Shown here: one piece after another, positions 7,197 to 20,438 of the stretch | Layout: every line of letters starts with the position of its first letter | Numbering within the stretch: the stretch's first letter is position 1 | DNA from: Gammaproteobacteria bacterium | GTDB taxonomy: Bacteria > Pseudomonadota > Gammaproteobacteria > Steroidobacterales > GCA-2729495 | NCBI GenBank assembly: GCA_024277915.1 | Contig: JAJRUG010000128.1 | Location: 1 to 64,000 of the forward strand | Direction: 5' to 3' | DNA: 64,000 nt | Notes under the pieces: generated by a model | Seen by the model: only the letters and a program-made list of their open reading frames with translations | Told to the model about the DNA's origin: nothing | Database searches by the model: none | Translations under genes and position numbers: made by a program

Positions 7197-8600
7197 ATGG
7201 AAAGCCCCGTACTCGACGCCCATCAAAAAACGCTGTCGATCAACCTTGATGAGAACCAGTACGGCACGATCGCAGAGATCGGGGCGGGCCAGGAAACGGC
7301 CCGCTGGTTTTTCAGAGTAGGCGGTGCAGCAGGCACCATCGCGAAAGCCATTTCGGCCTATGACATGAAGGTCAGTGACACGATCTACGGGCCGTGTCAG
7401 CGGTATGTCAGCCGTCAGCGCCTGGAAGCCATGGTCAACCATGAATACCAGCTGCTCATCGAGCGCCTGGGCGAAAAGCGTGGCGAGCAATGTTCATTTT
7501 TTGCCTTTGCCAACACAGTAGCTACCTGCAGTTTTTCGCAGAAGACACCGGGACATGGCTGGCTCGGCATCAAGTTTCGGGCGGAGCCACACCAGGAGGC
7601 ATCGCAAATCGATTTGCATGTGGTGCTCAAGGGGCAGGAAGTGGTCCAGGATCAGGAGACGCTGGGCCTTCTGGGGGTCAATCTGATCTACGGCGCGATG
7701 AACTATCATAATGATCCCGAACGACTACTGAGGTCTTTACTCGATAACCTCAGTGTTGATTTTCTGGAGATTGATCTGATCGATTTTAATGGGCCTGCAT
7801 TTGCACAGGTTGACAATCGGTTGATGGCATTGCACCTGGTGCAGCAGGGGTTATCCAAGGCTGCCATGTTCCGGGCAGATGGAAAAGTAGTACAGCCGGC
7901 AGAAGTTTTGTACAAGAAGGCCACGCTGGTGGAGCGCAGCCGGTTTCGTCCACCCACGCACCTGACGATGGATCTTCTCGATTGTTCTTACAGGGCATTT
8001 TGCAAGGAACAGGATGTTGAGCAGAAGGAGGTTGTGGTACTCAGTGAAATGACGCTGCATCATCTTGGCGCGCGCACGGAAATTGATGTTGATGATTTTC
8101 TTCAGCGTGCAGAGATTTTGTGTGCCCTGGGAAAGAACGTACTAATCTCTGATTTCCCTGAGTTTTTTCGATTGGCGGAATATCTGTCCGGCTGCACGGA
8201 AAAACCAATAGGCATTGCTCTTGGGGTTCCAACATTACGCCAGATATTCGATGAAAAATACTACCAGGATCTTGGTGGCGGTATCATGGAGTCAATGGGC
8301 AGGATGTTTGGAAAGAATGTACGGCTCTATGTCTGTCCCGAGTTGGCGGAGAACGGGATAGATCTGGTGACAATCAGCAACCTGGATATTCCAGCCCGGC
8401 AGAAAAATTTGTACCGTCATATTTGTGAAAACGGTTGCATCCGGGAGTTGACGGGTATCAATAAATCACATCTGTCGATCCTGTCCAATACCGTGCTGGA
8501 AAAAATCAGGAATAATGATCCGGAATGGGAGCAGATGGTACCGGAAATCGTAGCGAGTATCGTCAAGGAGCAGCGCTTGTTCAGCTACGGCTGTGGTTAG
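7197..8600 (+). CDS. Conserved protein of unknown function (467 aa)
   Basis: Soluble-looking protein without signal peptide or membrane segments. It opens with GTIAEIGAGQETARWFFRVG and has conserved-looking blocks such as SAYDMKVSDTIYG, GVNLIYGAMNYHN and LSEMTLHHLGAR. I recall this family only as a conserved proteobacterial protein that databases label inconsistently (for example as a TonB-dependent receptor); the sequence has nothing of a beta-barrel receptor, so I give no function. The middle part (DFLQRAEILCALGKNVLISDF, then an acidic-hydrophobic GVPTLRQIFDEKYY) looks like a globular alpha/beta enzyme. The antiporter gene that follows overlaps its stop by 8 bases if the GTG start is used, so the two may be co-expressed. 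Confidence 0.7.
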   Translation: MESPVLDAHQKTLSINLDENQYGTIAEIGAGQETARWFFRVGGAAGTIAKAISAYDMKVSDTIYGPCQRYVSRQRLEAMVNHEYQLLIERLGEKRGEQCSFFAFANTVATCSFSQKTPGHGWLGIKFRAEPHQEASQIDLHVVLKGQEVVQDQETLGLLGVNLIYGAMNYHNDPERLLRSLLDNLSVDFLEIDLIDFNGPAFAQVDNRLMALHLVQQGLSKAAMFRADGKVVQPAEVLYKKATLVERSRFRPPTHLTMDLLDCSYRAFCKEQDVEQKEVVVLSEMTLHHLGARTEIDVDDFLQRAEILCALGKNVLISDFPEFFRLAEYLSGCTEKPIGIALGVPTLRQIFDEKYYQDLGGGIMESMGRMFGKNVRLYVCPELAENGIDLVTISNLDIPARQKNLYRHICENGCIRELTGINKSHLSILSNTVLEKIRNNDPEWEQMVPEIVASIVKEQRLFSYGCG

Positions 8601-10158
8601 CCGGCGGCACCGCTTATGGCGCACTATGGCGGCGCCACTGGCACTGACAATAATTGTCGGAATCGTTCTTGCCAATTCATCAGCTGCACCGGCCGGAGCG
8701 GTGCCCCACTATGGTGTGCTCTCTTTATTACCGGCAGCTGTGACATTGGTCGTATGTTTCTGGAGCAGGAATGTCATTCTTGGTTTGTTTTGCGGCGTAC
8801 TGTCAGGCGGTATTGTTACCGGGCAGTTTAATGTTATTCGCGCTTACCTGATACCAAGCCTTGGTAGCGAGCAATACGCACAAATCCTGTTGGTCTATTT
8901 ATGGGCGTTGGGCGGCCTCATCGGGATCTGGACCAAGAATGGCGGTGCCCGGCATTTCGCCAAGACTGTCGCACACCGGTTTGTGAGCTCTGCACGCTCG
9001 GCCAAGTTGTTTGCCTGGACTATGGGTATCATTTTCCATCAGGGCGGGACAATCAGTACCGTACTGGCCGGAACGACTGCAAAACCCGTGGCGGATCGCG
9101 AACGTGTATCACATGAGGAGCTGTCATATATTGTTGACTCCACTGCCTCGCCCATCGCGACGCTGATTCCATTCAATGTCTGGCCCATCTATATTGCCGG
9201 GCTGATTACAATCGACTCTTTGAGTACTCTTGTTCCTGATGAGGAAAGTGCGATTGTCTGGTTCCTGAAGGCTATTCCGTTCAATTTCTATGCATGGATT
9301 GCAGTGACTTTTACATTGCTGCTTTCACTGGACAAGATGTTCTGGGTTGGCAAACGTATGCGCAGCGCGATGACAAGGGCGCGGGAGACAGGGCAGCTTG
9401 ATAGTAAGGATGCTCAGCCGCTGTTGGCGAAGGAGCTGAGCAATGCGGATGTCCCGGACTATTATCAGCCAGGGCTGGCAGATTTTTTTGTGCCCATTAG
9501 CATCCTGCTGGGGTTTACTATTGTGCCCTGGTTTCTGACGGGTGCACCGATGGTTTTTGAGGCATTTGGTTTGTCGCTGGTAGCCGCGATGATCCTGTCC
9601 GGCATCAGGGGCATGGCAATCCGGGATGTCTTCGATGGCATGCTCAACGGGATCAAAGGAGTCACAATCGGCGCTGTGATCCTTGGCCTGGCAGTAACGC
9701 TGGGTAACGTGTCTGAAGCGCTTGGTACTGCGGTATTTATCATCGAGAACACCAGCGGATTATTGCAAAATGTGCCCTATATGCTGCCCGGTATTTTGAT
9801 GATCGTGTGTATGCTGGTGTCTTTCTCGATTGGCTCATCATGGGGCACTTACGCTGTTGTATTTCCGATCGCACTACCGCTCGCTTTTGCAGTGAGCCCG
9901 GATCCGCTGTTCTTTGCGTTGAATTTTGGCGCAATTCTGGGTGGTGGAGTATTCGGAGATCAGTGTTCGCCATTTTCCGATACAACCGTATTGTCATCAA
10001 TGGCCTGCGGTGCAGATCTGATGGACCATGTCTTTACTCAACTGCCATTAGCACTGCTGGCTGCTGGTATTTCAATAGTTTTGTATATGCTGATCGCATT
10101 TATGCACTTTTATATAGACATGGGGTTTCCCGGGCCGGGAACAAGTCTTGGAATATGA
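8593..10158 (+). CDS. NhaC-type Na+/H+ antiporter family protein
   Basis: 521 residues from a GTG that overlaps the upstream stop; an ATG at 8626 would give 510 residues and directly precedes the first membrane segment. Neither has a strong ribosome-binding site. About a dozen hydrophobic segments are visible. Signature stretches of the NhaC/ion-transporter superfamily include FHQGGTISTVLAGTTAKPVADR, split around the membrane re-entrant region, SSWGTYAVVFPIALPLA, and FGDQCSPFSDTTVLSSMACG near the C-terminus. The family exchanges Na+ (sometimes coupled to organic acids) for protons across the inner membrane. The 3' end overlaps the convergent next gene by 49 bases. Exact substrate is uncertain. 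Confidence 0.85.
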   Translation: MVSRRHRLWRTMAAPLALTIIVGIVLANSSAAPAGAVPHYGVLSLLPAAVTLVVCFWSRNVILGLFCGVLSGGIVTGQFNVIRAYLIPSLGSEQYAQILLVYLWALGGLIGIWTKNGGARHFAKTVAHRFVSSARSAKLFAWTMGIIFHQGGTISTVLAGTTAKPVADRERVSHEELSYIVDSTASPIATLIPFNVWPIYIAGLITIDSLSTLVPDEESAIVWFLKAIPFNFYAWIAVTFTLLLSLDKMFWVGKRMRSAMTRARETGQLDSKDAQPLLAKELSNADVPDYYQPGLADFFVPISILLGFTIVPWFLTGAPMVFEAFGLSLVAAMILSGIRGMAIRDVFDGMLNGIKGVTIGAVILGLAVTLGNVSEALGTAVFIIENTSGLLQNVPYMLPGILMIVCMLVSFSIGSSWGTYAVVFPIALPLAFAVSPDPLFFALNFGAILGGGVFGDQCSPFSDTTVLSSMACGADLMDHVFTQLPLALLAAGISIVLYMLIAFMHFYIDMGFPGPGTSLGI

Positions 10159-10625
10159 GCGGTGCAATTTGGTACAACCTGTTCAATATCGACCAGAACT
10201 ACCCGTGGTTGATCAGGGAATAATTCCTTGATTGCACCTTTCTCATGGATTGATGCCCGGCCATTGACCCTGAGGCGGGCACCATCAGAAAAATCAATAA
10301 ACAGCATTCCCACCCGGGGGTTTTCAAGAATATTGCCGATACTCATGAATGCTCCATTCCCGTCATAGTCCGGAAAAGCAAGCTGGATAGTGTTGATGAT
10401 TCGAACAACACCAGCACCCCCGCCCTTGAAGGAGCAGTCGCAAGATCCATTGCTGCCGCTGGTCGCTAAAAAGAAGAAAGGAGCATTTTCGATACGTTGA
10501 TGGAAGGATTCCGGAATATGATCCATCAGAAGACGGGTTCGTCTCGCCTTGTCCCATATATGTGTCGTTTGCCACCTTTCCTGTGCAGCAACTTCTCCCG
10601 GATGAAAGTCATGATTATCAGGCAT
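10110..10625 (-). CDS. Pyridoxamine 5'-phosphate oxidase-like flavin-nucleotide-binding protein
   Basis: 171 residues of the PNPOx-like split-barrel fold: APFFFLATSGSNGSCDCSFKGG corresponds to the first flavin-contacting strands, followed by LAFPDYDGNGAFMSIGNILENPRVGMLFIDF and a basic-acidic strand GARLRVNGRAS. Members bind FMN, F420 or haem and reduce small substrates; which applies here cannot be seen. The 3' end overlaps the antiporter gene in the opposite strand by 49 bases. The 140 bases upstream of its start contain one of the long hairpin repeats. It is too divergent from PdxH to be called pyridoxine phosphate oxidase. Confidence 0.8.
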   Translation of the reverse strand: MPDNHDFHPGEVAAQERWQTTHIWDKARRTRLLMDHIPESFHQRIENAPFFFLATSGSNGSCDCSFKGGGAGVVRIINTIQLAFPDYDGNGAFMSIGNILENPRVGMLFIDFSDGARLRVNGRASIHEKGAIKELFPDQPRVVLVDIEQVVPNCTAHIPRLVPGPGNPMSI

Positions 10626-10767
10626 GGATATTAGTGTTAGAGAAAAACCTGATTAAAATAGTACAGTGAATTTCTTAAGAGACCCTTAAGCTGTGATACT
10701 CAAGACTGACTCTTGCAATCAGTGCCCCATAATACTCTCTGAAGTGCCAGAACAGACTATTGTGTCA

Positions 10768-10850
10768 GAGGATACGTACCGTTAACCCTTGCGGCGAAAT
10801 ACGGACCGCAGGGAGCCATCCGCCTGCAAGGGTTAACGGTACGTATCCTC
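10768..10850. repeat. Long perfect hairpin repeat, copy A
   Basis: A 25-bp perfect inverted repeat (10768-10792 and 10826-10850) encloses a 33-base loop. The loop contains GGACCGCAGGGAGCCATCCG, shared with copies B and C at 54.1 and 57.7 kb. The element is preceded by TGTCAGAGGA and followed by TCCTCGGG, as in the other copies. Its arms differ from theirs at many positions but remain fully complementary to each other. No T-tract follows, so it does not look like an ordinary intrinsic terminator. It lies between the start of a flavin-binding protein gene and a tRNA gene; the bases around it (10626-10906) show no other gene. Confidence 0.85.
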
Positions 10851-10906
10851 GGGGGATACCGTCCTGGCGAATATTGGCCCCCGTTTATTACGGTTTCTAA
10901 GAAAAT

Positions 10907-10983
10907 TGGTGGGCCTGGTAGGACTTGAACCTACGACCAATGGATTATGAGTCCACTGCTCTAACCAGCTGAGCTACAGGCCC
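10907..10983 (-). tRNA. tRNA with CAU anticodon, probably tRNA-Ile2 (lysidine type)
   Basis: On the minus strand a full cloverleaf can be drawn: acceptor stem GGGCCTG/CAGGCCC (7 perfect pairs), D arm GCTCAGCTGGTTAGAGC, anticodon arm GTGGA-CTCATAA-TCCAT, T arm GTAGGTTCAAGTCCTAC, and an encoded CCA end. The anticodon is CAU. Candidates are elongator Met or the minor Ile tRNA whose C34 is changed to lysidine by TilS. The anticodon-stem and variable region (TTGGTCG, TTCAAGTCC) resemble bacterial tRNA-Ile2 more than elongator Met, and initiator Met is excluded by the paired first position. The identity choice is inference. Confidence 0.9.
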
Positions 10984-11122
10984 ACTTCGTCCCCGGGTTT
11001 TCCGAGATTGCCCCGGGGCGGGAATTCTACCAGTTTCAACAGGCTGTAGAATAGCTTCCGACCCAGGTCATTGCTGATAGAATGGATGCCCGTCAACCAG
11101 TCAGGTCAATGATCCAGTCACC

Positions 11123-11707
11123 ATGAGCAGCCGTACGCGAGATATGCCGCCGCTGAGCGGTCCGGCCCGTATTCTTCGAGAAATCCGGTACCACGAGAGC
11201 TCCCGCCAGGGGCTGGGGCTGGTGCTATTGGCCGTTTATTCATTGCTATCCCGGCCACAGATTGAGTTGTTCTATGCGGGATCCGCAATTGCCCTTGCCG
11301 GCATGCTGGTGCGTCTGTATGCCTCGGGGTTCATATTCAAAAACCAGAAGCTGGCAACCGGGGGACCCTATTCGCTGGTGCGGCATCCACTCTACACGGG
11401 CAATCTACTGTTGATGATCGGGTTTACCATCTCCAGTGCGCAGTGGTGGGCAGTTCTGGCTTCTGCTGTATTCTGGTGGCTATATTATCCGACAGCAATC
11501 GACTACGAAGACCGGAAGCTGCATAAACTGTTCGGCGAGGAATGGGAAAAATGGTCGAAAACGGTACCCGCAGTGATTCCCCGGCGGCTTATCCCCAAAG
11601 GTGAGGGAAGCTGGTCGTTTATGACCAGCCTGAAGCAAAATGCAGAGCCGGCCGTGGTTGTATTTGTGTTGTTCTGGCTTTGGTACATTGGCCGACCCTT
11701 CTTTTGA
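11123..11707 (+). CDS. Isoprenylcysteine carboxyl methyltransferase/PEMT-family membrane methyltransferase
   Basis: 194 residues with about four hydrophobic segments. The C-terminal half carries the ICMT/PEMT signature: GGPYSLVRHPLYTGNLLLMIG followed by a membrane segment and YEDRKLHKLFGEEWEKW, the SAM-binding part of this fold. Bacterial members methylate small lipids or isoprenoid-like acceptors, or have unknown substrates. It starts 139 bases after the tRNA on the opposite strand, and its 3' end overlaps the next gene. The overlap suggests coupled expression with the kinase-like protein. Substrate unknown. Confidence 0.78.
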   Translation: MSSRTRDMPPLSGPARILREIRYHESSRQGLGLVLLAVYSLLSRPQIELFYAGSAIALAGMLVRLYASGFIFKNQKLATGGPYSLVRHPLYTGNLLLMIGFTISSAQWWAVLASAVFWWLYYPTAIDYEDRKLHKLFGEEWEKWSKTVPAVIPRRLIPKGEGSWSFMTSLKQNAEPAVVVFVLFWLWYIGRPFF

Positions 11708-12365
11708 TATTTCGGAGCTGGCCACCGGCACACTCCTGAGCCGTGGTTACCAGGGGGAGGTTTACCTCACGTGTTCCGGGGCGCAGCGCCTGGTCACCAA
11801 AAAAGCGATGGGCTCCTTTCCGGTCCGGATAATCCGGGAGTACATGCTGCGACGGGAGTATTCCGTCTATCAAAGACTCGAAGGCATTTCCGGCGTGCCT
11901 CGTTGTTTCGGTTTGCACGCCGGGAAGCTTTTGGTGCTTGAGTACATCGAGAGCCAGTCCTTTCGGGAGTCTGGCAAGCCACCGGAACACAGGCAGCGGT
12001 TTTTTTCCGAATTACTGGAAATCATCCAGTCCTTGCATCGCGCAGGCATCGCGCACGCTGATATGAAACGCAAGGATAACATTCTGATCGATACAACCGG
12101 CAGCCCGTACCTGATCGATTTTGGTGCTGCTGTCGCACTTCGGGAAGGTGGTAGTTTTCTGAACCGGTTTTTTTTCAGGCAGGCCTGCAGAATGGATCTG
12201 AATGCATGGATCAAACTGAAATACAGAAATCGATTTGACAACCTTTCTGAAGCAGATCAACATTTTTATCAGCCGACAACGATGGAGAAATGGGCTCGTA
12301 CGATGCGCCCGTTCTGGCAGGCTGCCACATTTCGTCGCTGGCGCAAGGCTCGCCGAAATCGATAA
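11640..12365 (+). CDS. Small kinase-like protein (LPS-kinase/RIO-like fold)
   Basis: Up to 241 residues. The catalytic core of the protein-kinase fold is recognisable: a basic N-lobe, LVLEYIES as hinge, HADMKRKDNILI as catalytic loop (HxD...N) and YLIDFGAA as the metal-binding DFG. The small size and the HADMK form fit the lipopolysaccharide core heptose/Kdo kinase and RIO-like groups rather than Ser/Thr receptor kinases. The ATG at 11640 overlaps the upstream methyltransferase gene by 68 bases; a TTG at 11688 (20-base overlap) is an alternative. It may phosphorylate an envelope glycolipid, but this is inference. A convergent lipoprotein gene follows after 9 bases. Confidence 0.7.
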   Translation: MQSRPWLYLCCSGFGTLADPSFDISELATGTLLSRGYQGEVYLTCSGAQRLVTKKAMGSFPVRIIREYMLRREYSVYQRLEGISGVPRCFGLHAGKLLVLEYIESQSFRESGKPPEHRQRFFSELLEIIQSLHRAGIAHADMKRKDNILIDTTGSPYLIDFGAAVALREGGSFLNRFFFRQACRMDLNAWIKLKYRNRFDNLSEADQHFYQPTTMEKWARTMRPFWQAATFRRWRKARRNR

Positions 12366-12374
12366 ATCAGGCAA

Positions 12375-12785
12375 TCACGAAGTGGCCGGACTTTTTGACG
12401 GGAGCGCGGGTGGCTTACCCGGGTTCTTGCCCGGTTTGCGCCGATAGCAGATCTTGCTGGATTTCCCTGAGACCCGAACGTCGAAGCGTCGTCCGTCTGC
12501 CTCAACAATGACCTGATGGCCGGGGGTAATGACCATCAGGTAGGATCTTCCAGGCTCCGGACAGTCGAGACTGGAATCACTGAAGTCTTTGACAACGATC
12601 GAGATGATCTCTGCACTTTCCGGTGGAATGCCAAGCAGGTCAGAGACGGTTTTGAGGGCTGTTTTTTCTGGTGTAGTGTCGTTGTTGCCCATGGATTGAT
12701 CTGAGCCGGCAGGTTTTATGCAGCCGGCAAGCAGCATGGTTGTTACCACCAAACCAGTCAATACGATCCTGTAGACAGCGCACAT
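12375..12785 (-). CDS. Small lipoprotein of unknown function
   Basis: The frame extends up to 12881, but the ATG at 12785 has a GGAG ribosome-binding site about 8 bases before it and opens a typical lipoprotein signal (LVVTTMLLAGC), so it is preferred, giving 136 residues. The mature part contains a compact domain with SYLMVITPGHQVIVEADGRRFDVRV and two Cys residues, and ends in a Pro/Lys/Ser-rich tail. I do not recognise the family. The gene is divergent from the membrane-anchored phosphatase-fold gene at 12918 with 132 bases between the starts, so they may share a regulatory region. Confidence 0.65.
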   Translation of the reverse strand: MCAVYRIVLTGLVVTTMLLAGCIKPAGSDQSMGNNDTTPEKTALKTVSDLLGIPPESAEIISIVVKDFSDSSLDCPEPGRSYLMVITPGHQVIVEADGRRFDVRVSGKSSKICYRRKPGKNPGKPPALPSKSPATS

Positions 12786-12917
12786 GGCAAGACTCCGCAA
12801 GCCATCAGATGAACCAGAGCCCAAATTCAATAGTACACGAGCCACATCAGTATGTGTCAGAATGCATGCTCGCAAGGTCACACCGGAACATGGCTTGATT
12901 GCTTACAGGAAGAGAAC

Positions 12918-13907
12918 TTGATCTGGTGGTTTGCTTATTGGGCCTTGGCCAGTGCTGGTCTGGCCACCATATTAGCGCTGTTCGGTTCCCGGTACTGGTT
13001 TTTTGAGCTGTTCACGCATTTCCGTGTGGCATATCTGCTGTTACTTTTGTTCGCAGCGCTGACTTTCGTATACACCCGGAATTTACCCGCAGCAGCAGCA
13101 GCTTTGCTGCTTTGCTTGCCAAATCTTTTCTACGTTGGCCCTTACCTGAAAGGACTTGTTTTGTACCAGGGTGTTGCCGGGCAATCGGGCTCGTCAGTAT
13201 CGCTGGTTTCACTGAATCTGCTGCTCACAAATCATGCCCATGAAGCGGTTCTGGCGTACCTTAAACAGAAGGCTCCGGATGTGCTTGTATTGTCCGAGAT
13301 GACCCCCTCCTGGGCTCAGGCACTTGCCGGTCTTGAGCAGGAGTACCAATGGCATGAAGTACATCCCCAGCAAGGTGCATTCGGGCTGGCTGTATACTCA
13401 CGTTTTCCACTCACCGATACCCGGGTAACTGATCTTGGTGCTCCGGATAGCATTAATGTGCATACCATTGTCGATCTGCCGGATCGATATCTGGAACTCT
13501 ATGCTGTTCATCTGTCGGCGCCGACCACAGCTGAGCGGGCTGCATGGCGAAACTCTCAGATAGCCAGCTTGTCTGAGCAATTAAGTTTTGGCCGGATTGA
13601 TTTGACCGAGGCGGATTCAGAACAGCTCGAAAACACATCGAAGCCATGGCAGAGAATGATCATCGGCGACCTGAATCTGACGCCCTTTTCGTCCTGTTTT
13701 GTGAAGTTGCTTCGCAGAACATCGATGTTTGACGCACGGCAGCGCTCAGGTTTGCATGTGACCTGGCCGATAGGATGGGTACCTGTCTGGATTCCTATCG
13801 ATCATTGTATTGTGGGCCCGGACGTATCGAGTGTCCGGGTTGAATGTGGGCCTGATGTAGGGTCAGACCACTATCCGCTGGAGGTTACGATCAGCACTCG
13901 GATTTAA
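12918..13907 (+). CDS. Membrane-anchored endonuclease/exonuclease/phosphatase-family protein
   Basis: A TTG at 12918 with AGGA seven bases upstream is preferred over the unsupported ATG at 12852; it gives 329 residues. Three hydrophobic segments occupy roughly the first 100 residues. The rest is an EEP-fold domain: VSLVSLNLLLTNHAHEAV (metal-binding Asn), PDVLVLSEMTP (catalytic Glu), LELYAVHLSAP, MIIGDLNLTPFS (Asp/Asn) and the terminal GSDHYPLEV (Asp-His). Such membrane-tethered EEP proteins are common next to envelope genes; substrates may be phosphodiesters of lipids or nucleotides. The next operon begins 21 bases downstream and could be read through. Confidence 0.8.
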   Translation: MIWWFAYWALASAGLATILALFGSRYWFFELFTHFRVAYLLLLLFAALTFVYTRNLPAAAAALLLCLPNLFYVGPYLKGLVLYQGVAGQSGSSVSLVSLNLLLTNHAHEAVLAYLKQKAPDVLVLSEMTPSWAQALAGLEQEYQWHEVHPQQGAFGLAVYSRFPLTDTRVTDLGAPDSINVHTIVDLPDRYLELYAVHLSAPTTAERAAWRNSQIASLSEQLSFGRIDLTEADSEQLENTSKPWQRMIIGDLNLTPFSSCFVKLLRRTSMFDARQRSGLHVTWPIGWVPVWIPIDHCIVGPDVSSVRVECGPDVGSDHYPLEVTISTRI

Positions 13908-13928
13908 TACAGGGTAAAGGAGCCATGT

Positions 13929-15452
13929 ATGAGTCTTGTCACTGAAGTTCTTAATCTTCTCGTTTACCTGTTCATTTTTGCCCTGGGCGCCGGATTTTTG
14001 GCGCTGGTGCTGACCTATGTGATTGATCGCACCCAGACAAAGCACGCGATTCGTCGTAACTACCCTGTTGTAGGCCGTTTTCGTTATTTCTTTGAGGAGA
14101 TGGGCGAGTTTTTCCGGCAGTACTTTGTCGCCATGGATCGTGAGGAGATGCCGTTTAATCGCGCCGAGCGATCCTGGGCCTATCGGGCGGCAAAGGGTGT
14201 CGACAGTACAGTTGCCTTTGGTTCAACGGTGGATATCACTTCTCCGGGCACACTGATCTTTCTCAATTGTTCGTTTCCGACCATGACTGAAGATGCCGCC
14301 CCTGTTGAGTCTATAGTGATCGGCGTCGGGTGCAGAACTCCTTATTCGACCGATAAGTTTTTCCATATCTCCGCGATGAGTTTCGGAGCGCTTTCAAAAC
14401 CTGCAGTACTGGCACTGTCCAATGGTGCACGGCTTTCAGGATGCTGGATAAACACAGGAGAGGGTGGACTGGCTTCCTGTCACCTGGAAGGCGGTGGCAA
14501 TATTGTATTTCAGGTGGGAACTGCGAAGTACGGTGTGAGAAATGACAAGGGTGAGTTGGACGAAGACAAGTTGCGAGAGGTGGCCAGTCACCAACAGGTA
14601 AGAATGTTCGAGATCAAGCTGAGCCAGGGTGCGAAGCCCGGTAAGGGTGGCATTTTGCCAGGCAAGAAGGTGACGAAAGAAATTGCGGCAACACGGGGGA
14701 TACCCGTTGGCGAGGACTCCATCAGTCCCAACCGTCACCCTGATATTGATAGCGTTTCTGATCTTCTGGACATGATTGCCAGAATCCGGCGCTGTACCGG
14801 GAAACCGGTTGGCTTTAAGGCTGTGATCGGAAGCTGTGGGTGGCTGGAAGAACTATTCGCCGAGGTAAAGCGGCGGGGTGATGAGTCTGCGCCTGATTTC
14901 ATTACCGTGGATTCAGGAGATGGTGGTACGGGTGCAGCACCGATGGCACTGATCGATAATGTCGGGCTGCCCATTCGGGAGAGCCTCCCGATGGTCATTG
15001 ACCGGCTGGACAAATTCGGTCTTCGGCCGCGGGTTCGGGTCATTGCCAGTGGCAAGCTGATCAACCCGCTGGGTGTCGCCTGGGCTTTGTGTATGGGTGC
15101 CGACCTGATCGTATCTGCACGAGGATTCATGTTTGCGCTGGGGTGTATCCAGTCACTCAAATGCAACAGTAATACCTGCCCGACCGGCATTGCGACCCAT
15201 GACAAGCATCTGCAAAGAGGGCTCGTGCCCGCCGACAAAGCGAAACGTGTGATGCGCTATCAGCAGGAAATGGAAAAAGAAGTCTGTGTCATTGCCCACT
15301 CTTGCGGTGTGAACGAACCACGGAAACTACGCCGGCATCATTGTCGAGTGGTTCAGGCAAACGGCAGGTCGGTGCCGCTTGATGAGCTCTATCCGCCGAC
15401 CGGGAAAACCCAACAACCTGTATTACAAGGGGTAAGAAATGAACGCGTCTGA
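13929..15452 (+). CDS. FMN-binding glutamate-synthase-domain protein, membrane anchored
   Basis: 507 residues: one N-terminal membrane segment (about 8-30) and then the FMN/2-oxoglutarate barrel of the glutamate synthase large subunit, standing alone without the glutaminase domain. The barrel features include ISAMSFGALSKPAVLALS, EGGLASCHL and a TVDSGDGGTGAAP loop. Three Cys at 406, 412 and 417 (spacing 5 and 4 residues) match the 3Fe-4S ligands of GltB. The ATG has an AAAGGAG site six bases before it. The gene overlaps the next by 14 bases and heads a three-gene operon. Lone FMN-GltS domains are widespread but their substrate is not established; true glutamate synthase activity would need an ammonia or amide source. 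Confidence 0.85.
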   Translation: MSLVTEVLNLLVYLFIFALGAGFLALVLTYVIDRTQTKHAIRRNYPVVGRFRYFFEEMGEFFRQYFVAMDREEMPFNRAERSWAYRAAKGVDSTVAFGSTVDITSPGTLIFLNCSFPTMTEDAAPVESIVIGVGCRTPYSTDKFFHISAMSFGALSKPAVLALSNGARLSGCWINTGEGGLASCHLEGGGNIVFQVGTAKYGVRNDKGELDEDKLREVASHQQVRMFEIKLSQGAKPGKGGILPGKKVTKEIAATRGIPVGEDSISPNRHPDIDSVSDLLDMIARIRRCTGKPVGFKAVIGSCGWLEELFAEVKRRGDESAPDFITVDSGDGGTGAAPMALIDNVGLPIRESLPMVIDRLDKFGLRPRVRVIASGKLINPLGVAWALCMGADLIVSARGFMFALGCIQSLKCNSNTCPTGIATHDKHLQRGLVPADKAKRVMRYQQEMEKEVCVIAHSCGVNEPRKLRRHHCRVVQANGRSVPLDELYPPTGKTQQPVLQGVRNERV

Positions 15453-17100
15453 ATTACTGGTACGTTGTCTGGAGCGGGAAGGCATTGAGTATATTTTCGG
15501 GGTTCCCGGGGAGGAGAATGCCGACTTTATGATGGCGTTGGAGCAATCTGATCGAATCCGGTTTGTACTGACACGCCATGAACAGGGCGCGGCGTTCATG
15601 GCCGAAATTTACGGGCGTCTGACCGGCCAGCCAGCCGTTTGTCTTGGCACGCTCGGACCGGGTGCTACCAACCTGATCACCGGTGTTGCTGATTCCAATA
15701 TGGATCGGGCACCCATGCTGGTACTGACCGGGCAGGGATCTACAGCCAGGCTACACAAGGAGTCGCATCAGATTATGGATGCGATAGAGATGTTCAAGCC
15801 GGTAACAAAATGGGCAACGAGCATCGTCAATCCAGATACGATCCCCGAGATCGTCCGCAAGGCAGTACGTCTTGCCCGCACTGAGAAACCGGGGGCAGTC
15901 CATATCGAATTGCCCGAAGACATTGCCAAGCTGGAAACTGCTGAATTACCGATGGAGCCGAGAAGGTTTCGGCGGTCGGTTGCTGATGACAAGATTGTTG
16001 ATCGAGCTTTCTCATTACTGTCGAAAGCAAAGCGACCTGTCATCCTGGCGGGTAACGGGTGTGTCCGCAGGCGTGCCAGCAAACAGCTGAGGTTGTTTTG
16101 TGAACGCACCGGCATTGGCGTGATCAGCACTTTCATGGCAAAGGGTTGTGTTGATGTCGATGCAGACTACTGCATGTACACAATCGGGTTGGGTAGCAAG
16201 GATCTGCCGGCAGTTCTGATCGACGAGGCTGACCTGGTTATCACACTGGGGTTCGACATGGTGGAGTACCATCCCGGTTTATGGAATCCGAATCGCGACA
16301 AGGCCATCATCCATGCAGATTTTTTGCCGGCGGAAATAGACACTCACTACCACCCGGAAGTAGAGTTGATCGGAGACCTCGCTCATACCTTGTGGATGTT
16401 CAACGAACGTGCAGCGCAGGCAAAAGACCTGAGTTTTGATTTCGCCCCACAGGAAAGTCTGCGACAAAAGATGGGTGCTGAAATGGCCATGCATGCCGAT
16501 GACGACACTTCCGGCACGATCAGGCCGCAGAAAGCACTTTGGGATGCGCGTGAAGTGCTTCGCCCGCAGGATATTCTGCTTTCTGATGTGGGGGCGCACA
16601 AGATGTGGATAGCCCGGCACTTCCATTGTCATGAGCCGAATACTTGCCTGATTCCAAACGGGTTTTGCTCAATGGGGTTCGCATTACCCGGGGCAATTGC
16701 TGCCAGTATGGTCTATCCTGATCGGCGGATTCTCGGTATTTCCGGAGACGGCGGGTTCCTTATGAATGTACAGGAGATGGAAACAGCGACACGTCTTGGC
16801 ACTCAACTGGTCATGCTGATCTGGGAGGACTGCGAGTACGGCCTGATCGCATGGAAGCAACACAGCCAGTTTGGTCGCCACACGGATCTGGCATTTAATA
16901 ACCCGGACTGGCTGGGTCTGGCGGCAGCATTTGGCTGGAGTGGGCACCATGTTGATCAAAGCAAGGAACTTAAGGCAACACTGCAAAAGGCCCTGGAAGA
17001 ACAGGGGCCCAGTCTGGTAGTGATGCCGGTAGATTATCGTGAGAATATGTTCCTGACCAAGCGCCTGGGTGAGTTGACTGAACCCGGGTTGGTGAGCTGA
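15439..17100 (+). CDS. Acetolactate-synthase-like TPP-dependent enzyme
   Basis: 553 residues with the three TPP-enzyme domains in order. The N-terminal pyrimidine-binding domain shows FGVPGEENADF and the catalytic Glu in RHEQGAAFMAEIYGR; the central domain has KRPVILAGNGC; the C-terminal PP domain has GDGGFLMNVQEMETATRLG and continues to WEDCEYGLIAWKQ, the Mg/TPP motif of catabolic AlsS-like proteins. No ilvN-type regulatory subunit is nearby, so it is not the anabolic IlvBN. Its AAGGGG site lies inside the preceding gene. It probably condenses or decarboxylates a 2-oxo acid, and the adjacent aldehyde dehydrogenase could consume an aldehyde product. Confidence 0.85.
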   Translation: MNASELLVRCLEREGIEYIFGVPGEENADFMMALEQSDRIRFVLTRHEQGAAFMAEIYGRLTGQPAVCLGTLGPGATNLITGVADSNMDRAPMLVLTGQGSTARLHKESHQIMDAIEMFKPVTKWATSIVNPDTIPEIVRKAVRLARTEKPGAVHIELPEDIAKLETAELPMEPRRFRRSVADDKIVDRAFSLLSKAKRPVILAGNGCVRRRASKQLRLFCERTGIGVISTFMAKGCVDVDADYCMYTIGLGSKDLPAVLIDEADLVITLGFDMVEYHPGLWNPNRDKAIIHADFLPAEIDTHYHPEVELIGDLAHTLWMFNERAAQAKDLSFDFAPQESLRQKMGAEMAMHADDDTSGTIRPQKALWDAREVLRPQDILLSDVGAHKMWIARHFHCHEPNTCLIPNGFCSMGFALPGAIAASMVYPDRRILGISGDGGFLMNVQEMETATRLGTQLVMLIWEDCEYGLIAWKQHSQFGRHTDLAFNNPDWLGLAAAFGWSGHHVDQSKELKATLQKALEEQGPSLVVMPVDYRENMFLTKRLGELTEPGLVS

Positions 17101-17113
17101 CCGGATAATTTCT

Positions 17114-18550
17114 ATGTTTGAATTTCAGATACTGATTCCCGGTGCGGGGCCCGCGGCCGGTACTTCAAAAGTTGTAGCGCCCTTCGACGGTAAAGTCATC
17201 GCTACCTTACCCGCCTGTGATGAAACGCATGTCGAGCAGGCACTGTCCACCGCCGCAGCCCTATACCACGATAGAGCCGGCTGGATTCCACTCCATGAGC
17301 GGGTAGTTATTCTTGAGCGTGCGGTGGAGCTGATGTCCGGGCAAATCGAAGAGCTGGCTATCGGTGCTGCTACCGAGGGCGGTAAGCCTTTGCTGGATTC
17401 CCGGGTAGAGGCCAATCGTGCAGTAGACGGACTGAAGCTGTGCATTGAGGCAATAAGAAGTGATCAGGGTGAAGTGGTGCCGGTCGGCGGCACGGCTTCA
17501 GGTGCACATCGCATGGCATTCACCCGGCGTGAACCGATCGGCGTGGTCGTCGCGGTCAGCGCTTTTAATCACCCGCTTAACCTGATTGTGCATCAGGTGG
17601 CGGCTGCGGTTGCCGCAGGTTGCCCGGTCATCGTTAAACCGGCAGGTGATACGCCGCTGTCGTGTATTCGGTTTGTACAACTTCTTCATCAGGCAGGTTT
17701 GCCACCGGAGTGGTGTCAGGTAGTCATCACCGACAGCAACGAAATCGCAGAGCGTCTGGTAACCGATCGCCGGGTCGCCTTTTTCAGTTTCATTGGCAGC
17801 GCGAAAGTCGGCTGGATGCTGCGCAGTAAACTTGCCCCGGGCACACGGTGTGCGCTGGAGCATGGTGGTGCGGCACCGCTGATTATCGCTTCTGATGCCG
17901 ATCTTGATCTGGCGTTGCCTGCGGTGACCAAGGGCGGGTTTTACCATGCCGGCCAGGTCTGTGTTTCCGTTCAGCGCGTGTTTGCGCACCGCTCCATTGC
18001 CAGGGGCTTCGCGGAGCGGCTTGCGGAGAACGCTGCGGCACTGAAGGTGGGTGACCCTGTTTTGGCTGAGACGGAAATCGGACCGTTGATCCGGCCCGGT
18101 GAAGTTACGCGAGTGCATAGCTGGGTATCAGAGGCCGTTGCGGATGGTGCTGAACTGCTCAGCGGCGGAAAGCCTGTTAGCGAGACCTGCTACCCTTGCA
18201 CCGTTTTATATCAGCCTCCCGAGCAGGCGAAGGTCAGTCAGCAGGAAATATTCGGTCCGGTAGTCTGTGTCTACGAATTCGACAAGCTGGATTCCGCCAT
18301 CGAGCGAGCCAATCAGCTTCCGTTTGCTTTTCAGGCGGCTATCTACTCAAGGTCGATCGATACTGCATTACGCGCTTTTCGCGGGTTGCATGCATCTGCA
18401 GTGATGGTGAATGATCACACGGCTTTTCGTGTAGACGGAATGCCGTTCGCCGGATTGTCTCAGTCGGGTCTGGGAGTCGGCGGTATCAGTCACACCATCC
18501 ATGACATGACCATCGGAAAGATGATGGTCATGCACTCACCAGAGATTTAG
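17114..18550 (+). CDS. Aldehyde dehydrogenase family protein
   Basis: 478 residues, the normal length of the NAD(P)-dependent ALDH superfamily. Cofactor and catalytic elements are visible: VVAVSAFNHPLNLIVHQVAAA, SFIGSAKVGWML, the catalytic Glu in LEHGGAAPLI (usually LELGGxxP) and the nucleophile Cys in GGFYHAGQVCVSVQRV. It ends with the conserved GMPFAGLSQSGLGVGG. The LEHGG form and short length fit the subgroup near lactaldehyde/succinate-semialdehyde enzymes, but the substrate cannot be assigned. It starts 13 bases after the TPP enzyme and closes the operon, ending 22 bases before the convergent rpoD. Confidence 0.88.
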   Translation: MFEFQILIPGAGPAAGTSKVVAPFDGKVIATLPACDETHVEQALSTAAALYHDRAGWIPLHERVVILERAVELMSGQIEELAIGAATEGGKPLLDSRVEANRAVDGLKLCIEAIRSDQGEVVPVGGTASGAHRMAFTRREPIGVVVAVSAFNHPLNLIVHQVAAAVAAGCPVIVKPAGDTPLSCIRFVQLLHQAGLPPEWCQVVITDSNEIAERLVTDRRVAFFSFIGSAKVGWMLRSKLAPGTRCALEHGGAAPLIIASDADLDLALPAVTKGGFYHAGQVCVSVQRVFAHRSIARGFAERLAENAAALKVGDPVLAETEIGPLIRPGEVTRVHSWVSEAVADGAELLSGGKPVSETCYPCTVLYQPPEQAKVSQQEIFGPVVCVYEFDKLDSAIERANQLPFAFQAAIYSRSIDTALRAFRGLHASAVMVNDHTAFRVDGMPFAGLSQSGLGVGGISHTIHDMTIGKMMVMHSPEI

Positions 18551-18572: not shown

Positions 18573-20438
18573 CTAGTCTTCCAGCAGAAAGCTCCGTAGC
18601 GTATCGCTGCGAGACGGGTGCCGGAGTTTGCGCAAGGCCTTGGCTTCGATCTGCCGGATACGCTCCCGGGTGACATCAAACTGTTTGCCGACTTCTTCCA
18701 GCGTATGATCGGTGTTCATGTCGATACCAAAGCGCATGCGCAGCACCTTGGCTTCGCGCGGTGTCAGTCCAGCCAGAACATCCCAGGTTGTTTCCTTGAG
18801 GCCCTCGGTGGTTGCGGAATCAATCGGCGAATGTTCTGTGGTGTCCTCGATAAAATCTCCGAGGTGTGAGTCTTCGTCATCACCGATCGGTGTTTCCATC
18901 GAGATCGGTTCTTTGGCAATTTTCAATACCTTGCGAACCTTGTCTTCAGGCATTTCCATGCGCTCGGAAAGTTCTTCCGGTGTTGGCTCCCGGCCCATTT
19001 CCTGGAGCATCTGCCGTGAAATACGATTCAGCTTGTTAATGGTTTCGATCATGTGCACCGGAATACGGATGGTCCGTGCCTGGTCAGCAATAGAGCGTGT
19101 AATTGCCTGGCGAATCCACCAGGTTGCGTAGGTAGAAAACTTGTACCCGCGCTGGTACTCAAACTTGTCGACTGCTTTCATCAGGCCGATATTGCCTTCC
19201 TGAATCAGGTCCAGGAACTGCAGGCCACGGTTGGTGTACTTTTTGGCGATGGAAATAACCAGGCGCAGGTTTGCCTCAACCATTTCCTTTTTTGCGCGTC
19301 GCGCCTTGGCTTCGCCGATGGACATCTGGCGGTTGATCTCTTTGATCTCAGCGATAGTGAGAAACGAGGTTGCCTCGATGTTGACCAGCTTGCGCTGGGC
19401 TCGAAGAATATCTTCCTTCAGTTTTGCCAGTGTCGACGAGTGCTTGCGCTTGGCTCGAATGTGTTTTTCGACCCAATTGAGATTGGTTTCATTTTTCGGG
19501 AAGCTGCCGATAAAGTCTTTGCGAGACATGCCGGCTTCAACCACACAAATAGCTGCGATACGGCGCTCGTACAATCGGATATTGCGAATTGTTCCGCGGA
19601 CACTATTGCCGATACGATCAAACAGTTTTGGTGCCAGCTTCAGCTCCATGATCTCGGCAGTCATTTTTTCGCGGGCCCTGACGGTCTTGGGGTCTTTGCA
19701 ACCGTGCTCCTGCAGCATCGCGACAAAACGTTTTTGCTTTCGAAAAATCGATTTCATACGTTTTTCGACTTCTGCCGGATCTGGCCCGGTGTCTTCCGGC
19801 TCCTCGTCATTTTTTTCAACCGGTTTGCTGGCATCGCGTGGCACTGCCTGCTTGATTTCCTGGGGTGCGTTCGGGTCGATAAAACCCACAACGACGTCAT
19901 GCAGTCGGGCTTCTCCGGCACGCACCGGCAAATAGGCATCAGCGAGTACATCAAGAGCAGGCGGGAAAAAAGTAGCGGCAGTCTTGACTGCATTCAGGCC
20001 TTCTTCAATCCGCTTTGCGATCCGGATTTCGCCTTCACGTGTCAGGAGCTCTACGGTGCCCATCTCACGCATGTACATTCGAACCGGATCTGTGGTGCGA
20101 CCGAATTCACTGTCAACGGTAGCAATGACCGCAGCCGCTTCGTCGGCTGCTTCGTCATCGTTGGTCACCGCAGTATCAGATAACAGCAGTGATTCGACAT
20201 CGGGTGCTTTTTCGTGCACCGTAATGCCCATATCGTTAATCATGTTAACGATATCCTCGATCTGCTCCGGATCCACAATATCGTTAGGCAGGTGGTCATT
20301 CACCTCCGCGTAGGTCAGATAACCCTGCTCCTTGCCACGCGCGATAAGAAGCTTTAGCTGGGATTTCTGATCCGTGGTAGTGTTTTGAGCCGTTTCAACG
20401 GCTTCTTGTTTCACTATTTTTTTCGCTTGCGCCTTCAC
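18573..20438 (-). CDS. rpoD: RNA polymerase primary sigma factor RpoD (sigma70)
   Basis: 621 residues with region 1.1 ([21 protein letters not shown]), region 1.2 ([18 protein letters not shown]), a long acidic non-conserved insert with a conserved core, region 2 ([18 protein letters not shown] and [13 protein letters not shown]), region 3 and region 4 ([36 protein letters not shown]). The start is GTG. This is the housekeeping sigma factor that directs most transcription. It is the distal gene of the rpsU-yqeY-dnaG-rpoD operon, with 232 bases between it and dnaG that hold its own promoter. The far C-terminus [13 protein letters not shown] is the usual one. Confidence 0.98.

Follow-up and report, generated by a model that had tools for sequence, protein, structure and literature searches.

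Organisation of the three-gene operon

The window considered in the current analysis comprises the first 64,000 nucleotides of contig JAJRUG010000128.1 (assembly GCA_024277915.1) of a gammaproteobacterium and encodes three co-oriented genes that form a compact operon. The three genes, and the features located within them below, lie on the + strand. The first gene (13929..15452), referred to as GLT, encodes a protein of 507 residues made up of a lone glutamate synthase domain of the flavin mononucleotide (FMN)/3Fe-4S type, without a glutaminase domain. The second gene (15439..17100) codes for a thiamine pyrophosphate enzyme of 553 residues, referred to as TPP, which belongs to the annotation family acetolactate synthase NF006187/PRK08322 and is predicted here to be a 2-oxoglutarate decarboxylase (OGDC). 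The third gene (17114..18550) encodes an aldehyde dehydrogenase (ALDH) of 478 residues, a predicted succinic semialdehyde dehydrogenase (SSADH) resembling ALDH21. The Pfam families Glu_synthase (281 bits), TPP_enzyme N, M and C, and Aldedh (416 bits) have been assigned to the three products respectively.

All three genes start with ATG; the first two share 14 bp, and a gap of 13 bp separates TPP from ALDH. A first-pass annotation had described the genes as overlapping or nearly so, the first as lacking a glutaminase domain, the second as lacking a regulatory subunit and the third as an ALDH, and it is borne out on each of these points. Pfam finds neither a glutaminase domain nor a small acetolactate synthase (ALS) subunit in the scanned proteins encoded from 8593 to 18550. 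A promoter and terminator scan of the locus gave no signal exceeding that of shuffled sequences.

TPP as a predicted 2-oxoglutarate decarboxylase

The best curated model for TPP is NF006187 (PRK08322), named 'acetolactate synthase large subunit', with a score of 714.6 bits and a cut-off of 509. Models of AlsS are matched below their cut-offs (TIGR02418, 438.7 of 551.1 bits; NF006378, 481.2 of 510 bits), as are the remaining listed acetolactate synthase models. The genome to which the window belongs has one TPP match above the NF006187 cut-off (714.9 bits) and four weaker ones below it.

The active-site residues of an assayed 2-oxoglutarate decarboxylase of Microcystis (MaKGD) are named in PMC10418658, and 14 of the 15 positions named there between 382 and 531 match TPP at one constant offset. 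The segment V384-x-A386-H387-K388 of TPP (16588..16602) is equivalent to V382, A384, H385 and K386 of the Microcystis enzyme, and D464, Y467, L469 and K473 (16828..16857) to D462, Y465, L467 and K471; E50 aligns with E48 of TPP.

Cyanobacterial OGDCs have been collected by a contig scan with the SSADH stretch of PDB entry 4it9, which we take to be the enzyme of Synechococcus PCC 7002; 80 loci were kept and the TPP genes just downstream considered. The 41 full-length genes among them encode proteins 45 to 50% identical to the window TPP over their length. Fourteen of the 41, none of which is to our knowledge an assayed protein, have been aligned. At 13 signature positions TPP reads EVAHKCMDDYLKY, 13 of the 14 cyanobacterial rows read EVAHKAMDDYLKY and AlsS of B. 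subtilis reads EISHAQLDDYMQY; the signature is present in all 14, one of them having F for Y465. The mean identity of TPP to these proteins is 48.9%, as against 33.6% to B. subtilis AlsS.

A quick maximum likelihood tree, for which SH-aLRT was the only support computed, splits 83 OGDC-type rows from five AlsS-type rows with a support of 100, and the same split is recovered at 95 with outgroups from the window's own genome. Both trees were computed without rows L049 and L042, and the second (support 100) also without L059 and the three outgroups of the own genome. The window TPP branches beside the cyanobacterial rows and is not nested among them. The loci were drawn from a class sample of 183 evenly sampled Gammaproteobacteria genomes besides the window's own and were picked non-randomly to spread over score, 53 of the 106 family matches outside the window being fetched; 49 of these 53 are of the OGDC type by a reading of their residues.

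As TPP falls in the OGDC clade and keeps the active-site signature, the label 'AlsS-like' given by the first-pass annotation is misleading and holds at the level of the superfamily only. Decarboxylation of 2-oxoglutarate to succinic semialdehyde, free of coenzyme A (CoA) and lipoate, is a well-supported prediction for this enzyme. Most of the aligned members of NF006187 show the OGDC signature or a close variant of it, and this equivalog model is likely to be misnamed as acetolactate synthase large subunit.

A predicted ALDH21-like succinic semialdehyde dehydrogenase

The third-best PDB match of the window ALDH (272 bits) is moss ALDH21 (5mz5); the further best matches are ALDHs without a stated substrate, presumably of Burkholderia origin, and a lactaldehyde dehydrogenase. 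R102 (17417..17419), Y277 and R439 (18428..18430) correspond to Arg121, Tyr296 and Arg457 of ALDH21, which we take to be ligands of the succinate carboxylate, and are retained in all 36 ALDH21-like proteins of the aligned loci, the window's included. C283 (17960..17962) is presumed to be the catalytic cysteine. Moss ALDH21 is described as an NADP+-dependent SSADH in a review (PMC7823795), and for the window enzyme NAD(P)+-dependent oxidation of succinic semialdehyde to succinate is a well-supported prediction.

A TPP gene carried by a haloarchaeal plasmid overlaps the gene of a different kind of ALDH, which in the PDB is matched best by a succinate-semialdehyde dehydrogenase (503 bits), and in one gammaproteobacterium (L191) TPP is paired with an ALDH of that same kind. 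The TPP family has thus been joined to two separate kinds of ALDH, both of which have SSADH members. No match to a glutamate decarboxylase is found in the window's own genome, which would make TPP the source of the semialdehyde and not the gamma-aminobutyric acid shunt.

A subgroup of TPP genes is found in a different setting. Ten loci (L159, L161-L164, L168-L172) encode an OGDC-type TPP without an adjacent ALDH, beside a DsbA-like gene; this subgroup is situated mostly 5' of an Exo_endo_phos gene and at times near suc genes. The haloarchaeal TPP gene (L057) is likewise followed by a DsbA-family gene.

Association with genes of 2-oxoglutarate metabolism

GLT lies immediately 5' of sucA-sucB-lpd in one genome (G165, L208), and a TPP gene is located 0.9 kb from sucA at locus L159. 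TPP genes are also found near sucA in G130, G060 and G200, and in G051 the ALDH gene and the lpd of a sucA-sucB-lpd operon are 134 bp apart. On plasmids of Sulfitobacter and Dinoroseobacter, TPP is adjoined by a gdhA annotated as NADP-specific. These sucA, lpd and gdhA neighbours point to 2-oxoglutarate as the metabolite. A sucA match is lacking in 25 of the 85 TPP-bearing genomes of the class sample and in 11 of the 98 others (p = 0.0026, kinship ignored). All five genomes of genus g9, which belongs to the window's family, are without a sucA match, and the three of them that carry the trio (G009, G027, G031) may close the tricarboxylic acid (TCA) cycle by the bypass proposed below.

If TPP were a genuine catabolic acetolactate synthase, or else a broad carboligase, with ALDH clearing aldehyde by-products, this would suit the name carried by the best curated models. 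AlsS types are also the nearest PDB chains of TPP, and OGDC and AlsS belong to one superfamily. Such a function is nevertheless very unlikely, as the genes are repeatedly linked to sucA, lpd, gdhA and SSADH, and it has been rejected on account of the scores below the AlsS cut-offs, the OGDC residues at positions where AlsS differs and the separate clade.

Linkage of the three genes

The class sample includes 85 carriers of TPP (above the NF006187 cut-off), 40 of ALDH and 98 of GLT. TPP is present in 38 of the 40 ALDH-bearing genomes and lies side by side with ALDH in 30 (p = 4e-13). Pairs of TPP and GLT within 10 kb are seen in 12 genomes, each belonging to a different family, where 0.7 would be expected at random, and GLT adjoins ALDH in 13 genomes. 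The gene orders GLT-TPP-ALDH, TPP-ALDH-GLT and GLT-TPP all occur, and three TPP and two GLT subfamilies are involved. The TPP tree shows nine changes of the GLT-adjacent state, at least seven of which are forced by well-supported branches.

The trio also recurs on plasmids of Leisingera, one of them typed as conjugative, where it is followed by RidA; identity to the window proteins is about 40-42% for TPP, 65-67% for GLT and 59-60% for ALDH. The metabolic module suggested by the first-pass annotation is genuine and recurring, and a function common to its members is the best explanation for its repeated assembly out of differing parts.

Sixty relatives of the window's genome have also been analysed. 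A close GLT is found in 38 of them (hand count), TPP in 14 and ALDH in 16. The ALDH of two relatives that have ALDH without TPP (G001, G004) lies at or near contig ends, so that the absence of TPP is doubtful there. The trio is contiguous in seven of the 14 TPP-bearing relatives; the order of the window is seen in five (G009, G025, G027, G031, G038), and in G045 and G058 TPP-ALDH lies beside a distant GLT subfamily. The first-pass annotation had held that genes found separately in most relatives would indicate chance adjacency. Separation is indeed seen for GLT, 29 of the 38 GLT-bearing relatives being without a TPP match (hand count; contig ends interrupt one of the 29, G001), but not for TPP and ALDH, as ALDH is present in all 14 TPP-bearing relatives and adjacent to TPP in 11.

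In the window the trio continues an older co-oriented block of ICMT, kinase and Exo_endo_phos genes that extends to rpoD. The Exo_endo_phos gene stops 21 bp 5' of GLT, and ALDH terminates 22 bp short of the end of a convergent rpoD (18573-20438). Two relatives (L205, L206) have the ICMT, kinase, EEP, GLT and rpoD neighbourhood without the TPP-ALDH pair, which means that the pair arrived or left beside a resident GLT. Insertion or loss of the pair between GLT and rpoD without any joint function would account for this layout and for other relatives that keep the pair away from GLT. Chance adjacency is nonetheless hardly credible and has been rejected, in view of the linkage counts, the forced changes of state in the TPP tree and the trios assembled elsewhere from other subfamilies and in other orders, despite GLT often being separate.

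Further observations concern this neighbourhood. The small protein kinase/RIO-like gene of the window (11640-12365) is kept with its ICMT neighbour 5' of GLT in relatives. Solo GLT genes are adjoined by rpoD in two of seven fetched contexts, and at L155 (G061, another family) a Leisingera-type TPP-ALDH pair likewise adjoins rpoD. At L157 (3603-5029, G151) GLT is broken into two open frames with a stop within the match, TPP and ALDH being whole.

GLT as a lone glutamate synthase domain with a predicted membrane anchor

GLT is predicted to be anchored to the membrane by one N-terminal helix (residues 2-35; 13932..14033), as the first-pass annotation had it; the helix is present in the predicted model and the highest hydropathy window begins at residue 10. 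The FMN barrel and the three cluster cysteines claimed earlier are confirmed by Pfam, alignment and fold match. The cysteines C406, C412 and C417 (15144..15179) align to C1137, C1143 and C1148 of the ferredoxin-dependent glutamate synthase (Fd-GltS) of Synechocystis and are invariant in all 28 aligned sequences. In a structure search with the AlphaFold model (pLDDT 82.5, pTM 0.84), the top seven matches are glutamate synthases, their large subunits being the best (Z 34.5 to 30.5), followed by 2-hydroxyacid oxidases and IPP isomerases with Z below 24. E178, K230, K236, R256 and H270 of GLT are identical to Fd-GltS, as are the three cysteines. We take E903, K972, Q978 and R992 of Fd-GltS to be its ligand residues.

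The loop GEGGQLP of Fd-GltS is replaced by GKGGILP in GLT, and every aligned sequence of the two GLT subfamilies of the module has K or H at the first changed position and I, V or M at the second. The substrate pocket thus appears to be GltS-like but altered, the glutaminase part having been lost. The own genome also encodes a second lone GltS-like protein (C43:2368-3333), 36% identical to GLT and with a different active-site loop. No description of a role for lone GltS domains was found in the open-access literature.

The loop change could mean that the substrate of GLT is a different amino acid or, as for N-methylglutamate synthase, an N-substituted glutamate, the compound being degraded via 2-oxoglutarate. 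Carnitine genes and RidA adjoin the Leisingera trio, and an ALDH-TPP pair on a Vibrio plasmid has RidA and an ABC gene for glycine betaine nearby. These contexts are not common to the window. The partner subunits of the N-methylglutamate synthase MgsABC are encoded beside the FMN subunit, and none is present among the proteins scanned around GLT; such a substrate is unlikely. The RidA-family genes (L033 12710-13054 and L054 3318-3812) perhaps deal with imines formed while an amino acid is oxidised. On the Vibrio plasmid hhe (L054 10738-15638), which carries an anti-phage annotation, is located 2 kb past the pair.

GLT might also be assimilatory, using free ammonium to turn 2-oxoglutarate into glutamate; the operon would then split 2-oxoglutarate between nitrogen assimilation and succinate and would not be a linear chain for glutamate degradation. 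This would agree with its best structural matches, which include 2-oxoglutarate complexes of glutamate synthases, with gdhA beside TPP on two plasmids and with GLT 5' of sucA in one genome. It would, on the other hand, bring together two consumers of one substrate; a large open frame elsewhere in the own genome (C6, 1590 codons) holds a GltS match, and a membrane anchor is of no obvious use for synthesis. We consider this role of GLT unlikely.

A proposed bypass from glutamate and 2-oxoglutarate to succinate

Given the TPP and ALDH assignments, the best reading of the operon is that a 2-oxo acid is processed via an aldehyde, as the first-pass annotation had supposed, and two of the three genes predict the known pathway from 2-oxoglutarate through succinic semialdehyde to succinate. 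With about even confidence, the operon is regarded as a 2-oxoglutarate/glutamate-to-succinate bypass in which GLT interconverts glutamate and 2-oxoglutarate.

In the proposed bypass, GLT would convert glutamate to 2-oxoglutarate and ammonium on FMN or carry out the reverse, a choice of substrate suggested by its fold, residues and neighbours. GLT would exchange electrons with a membrane carrier by way of its 3Fe-4S cluster; both the direction and the carrier are guesses, glutamate oxidation being favoured. TPP, judged by its clade and active site, would release CO2 from 2-oxoglutarate without CoA or lipoate, and ALDH, judged by its family and carboxylate-binding residues, would oxidise the resulting semialdehyde with NAD(P)+. 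The chain would sidestep 2-oxoglutarate dehydrogenase (OGDH), a large complex, and succinyl-CoA, and would do without CoA and lipoate. More tentatively, GLT is possibly a membrane glutamate:quinone oxidoreductase, which together with TPP and ALDH would make up a CoA- and lipoate-free respiratory glutamate-to-succinate pathway, spread among Proteobacteria, partly plasmid-borne and labelled 'acetolactate synthase'.

Several observations weigh against the proposed bypass. The altered loop of GLT means that its substrate may differ from that of GltS. GLT is often solo among the relatives, which speaks against a tight coupling, and four of the 13 ALDH-GLT neighbour pairs of the class sample have TPP elsewhere. 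Among the named positions of the Microcystis OGDC, A408, the exception among the 15, is C in TPP, and Q254 is G. We know of no activity for any member of the clade of the window TPP. In the Leisingera-type TPP of some trios H385 is replaced by Y or F and L467 by M, so the trios need not all act on one substrate. Arg228 of ALDH21, whose role there we likewise assume, is N in the window ALDH. The ALDH21 arginines are also found in uncharacterised and lactaldehyde-named relatives, and SSADH activity is thus supported, but neither proved nor singled out. The association of TPP with the lack of sucA ignores phylogeny. Finally, the own genome carries sucA, so the bypass is unnecessary there for closing the TCA cycle, and a simple replacement of OGDH in this genome has been rejected.

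If the proposal is true, the name of a large family is wrong, the TCA bypass of cyanobacteria is common well beyond that group and the lone GltS domains gain a testable reaction.

Comparison with known systems

A decarboxylase acting with a semialdehyde dehydrogenase constitutes the 2-oxoglutarate bypass of cyanobacteria, as described in PMC10418658 and PMC4224347. The statement of the first-pass annotation that no known pathway uses these genes does not hold for TPP and ALDH. No report of the trio, or of a lone GltS domain joined to the bypass, was found in the open-access full-text literature. The cyanobacterial systems (SYNPCC7002_A2770; sll1981; Microcystis MaKGD) have the same two predicted steps and adjacent decarboxylase and ALDH genes, with TPP in the same clade and with the same active-site signature. 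They differ in that the window ALDH is ALDH21-like and not of the cyanobacterial SSADH kind, and in that the own genome also has sucA.

The window ALDH keeps the equivalents of Arg121, Tyr296 and Arg457 of moss ALDH21 (5mz5) and differs from it in the Asn equivalent to Arg228. TPP has its superfamily, its fold and H387 in common with B. subtilis AlsS, but belongs to another clade and has K388, L469 and K473 where AlsS has A, M and Q. GLT shares the FMN barrel, the 3Fe-4S cysteines, most active-site residues and the fold (Z 34.5) with the glutamate synthase domain of GltB and Fd-GltS (1ea0, 1ofe), and differs from it in the missing glutaminase domain, the N-terminal membrane helix and the loop GKGGILP. 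The decarboxylase/SSADH bypass is already known from cyanobacteria, and the lone GltS domain added to it in the window is the new part.

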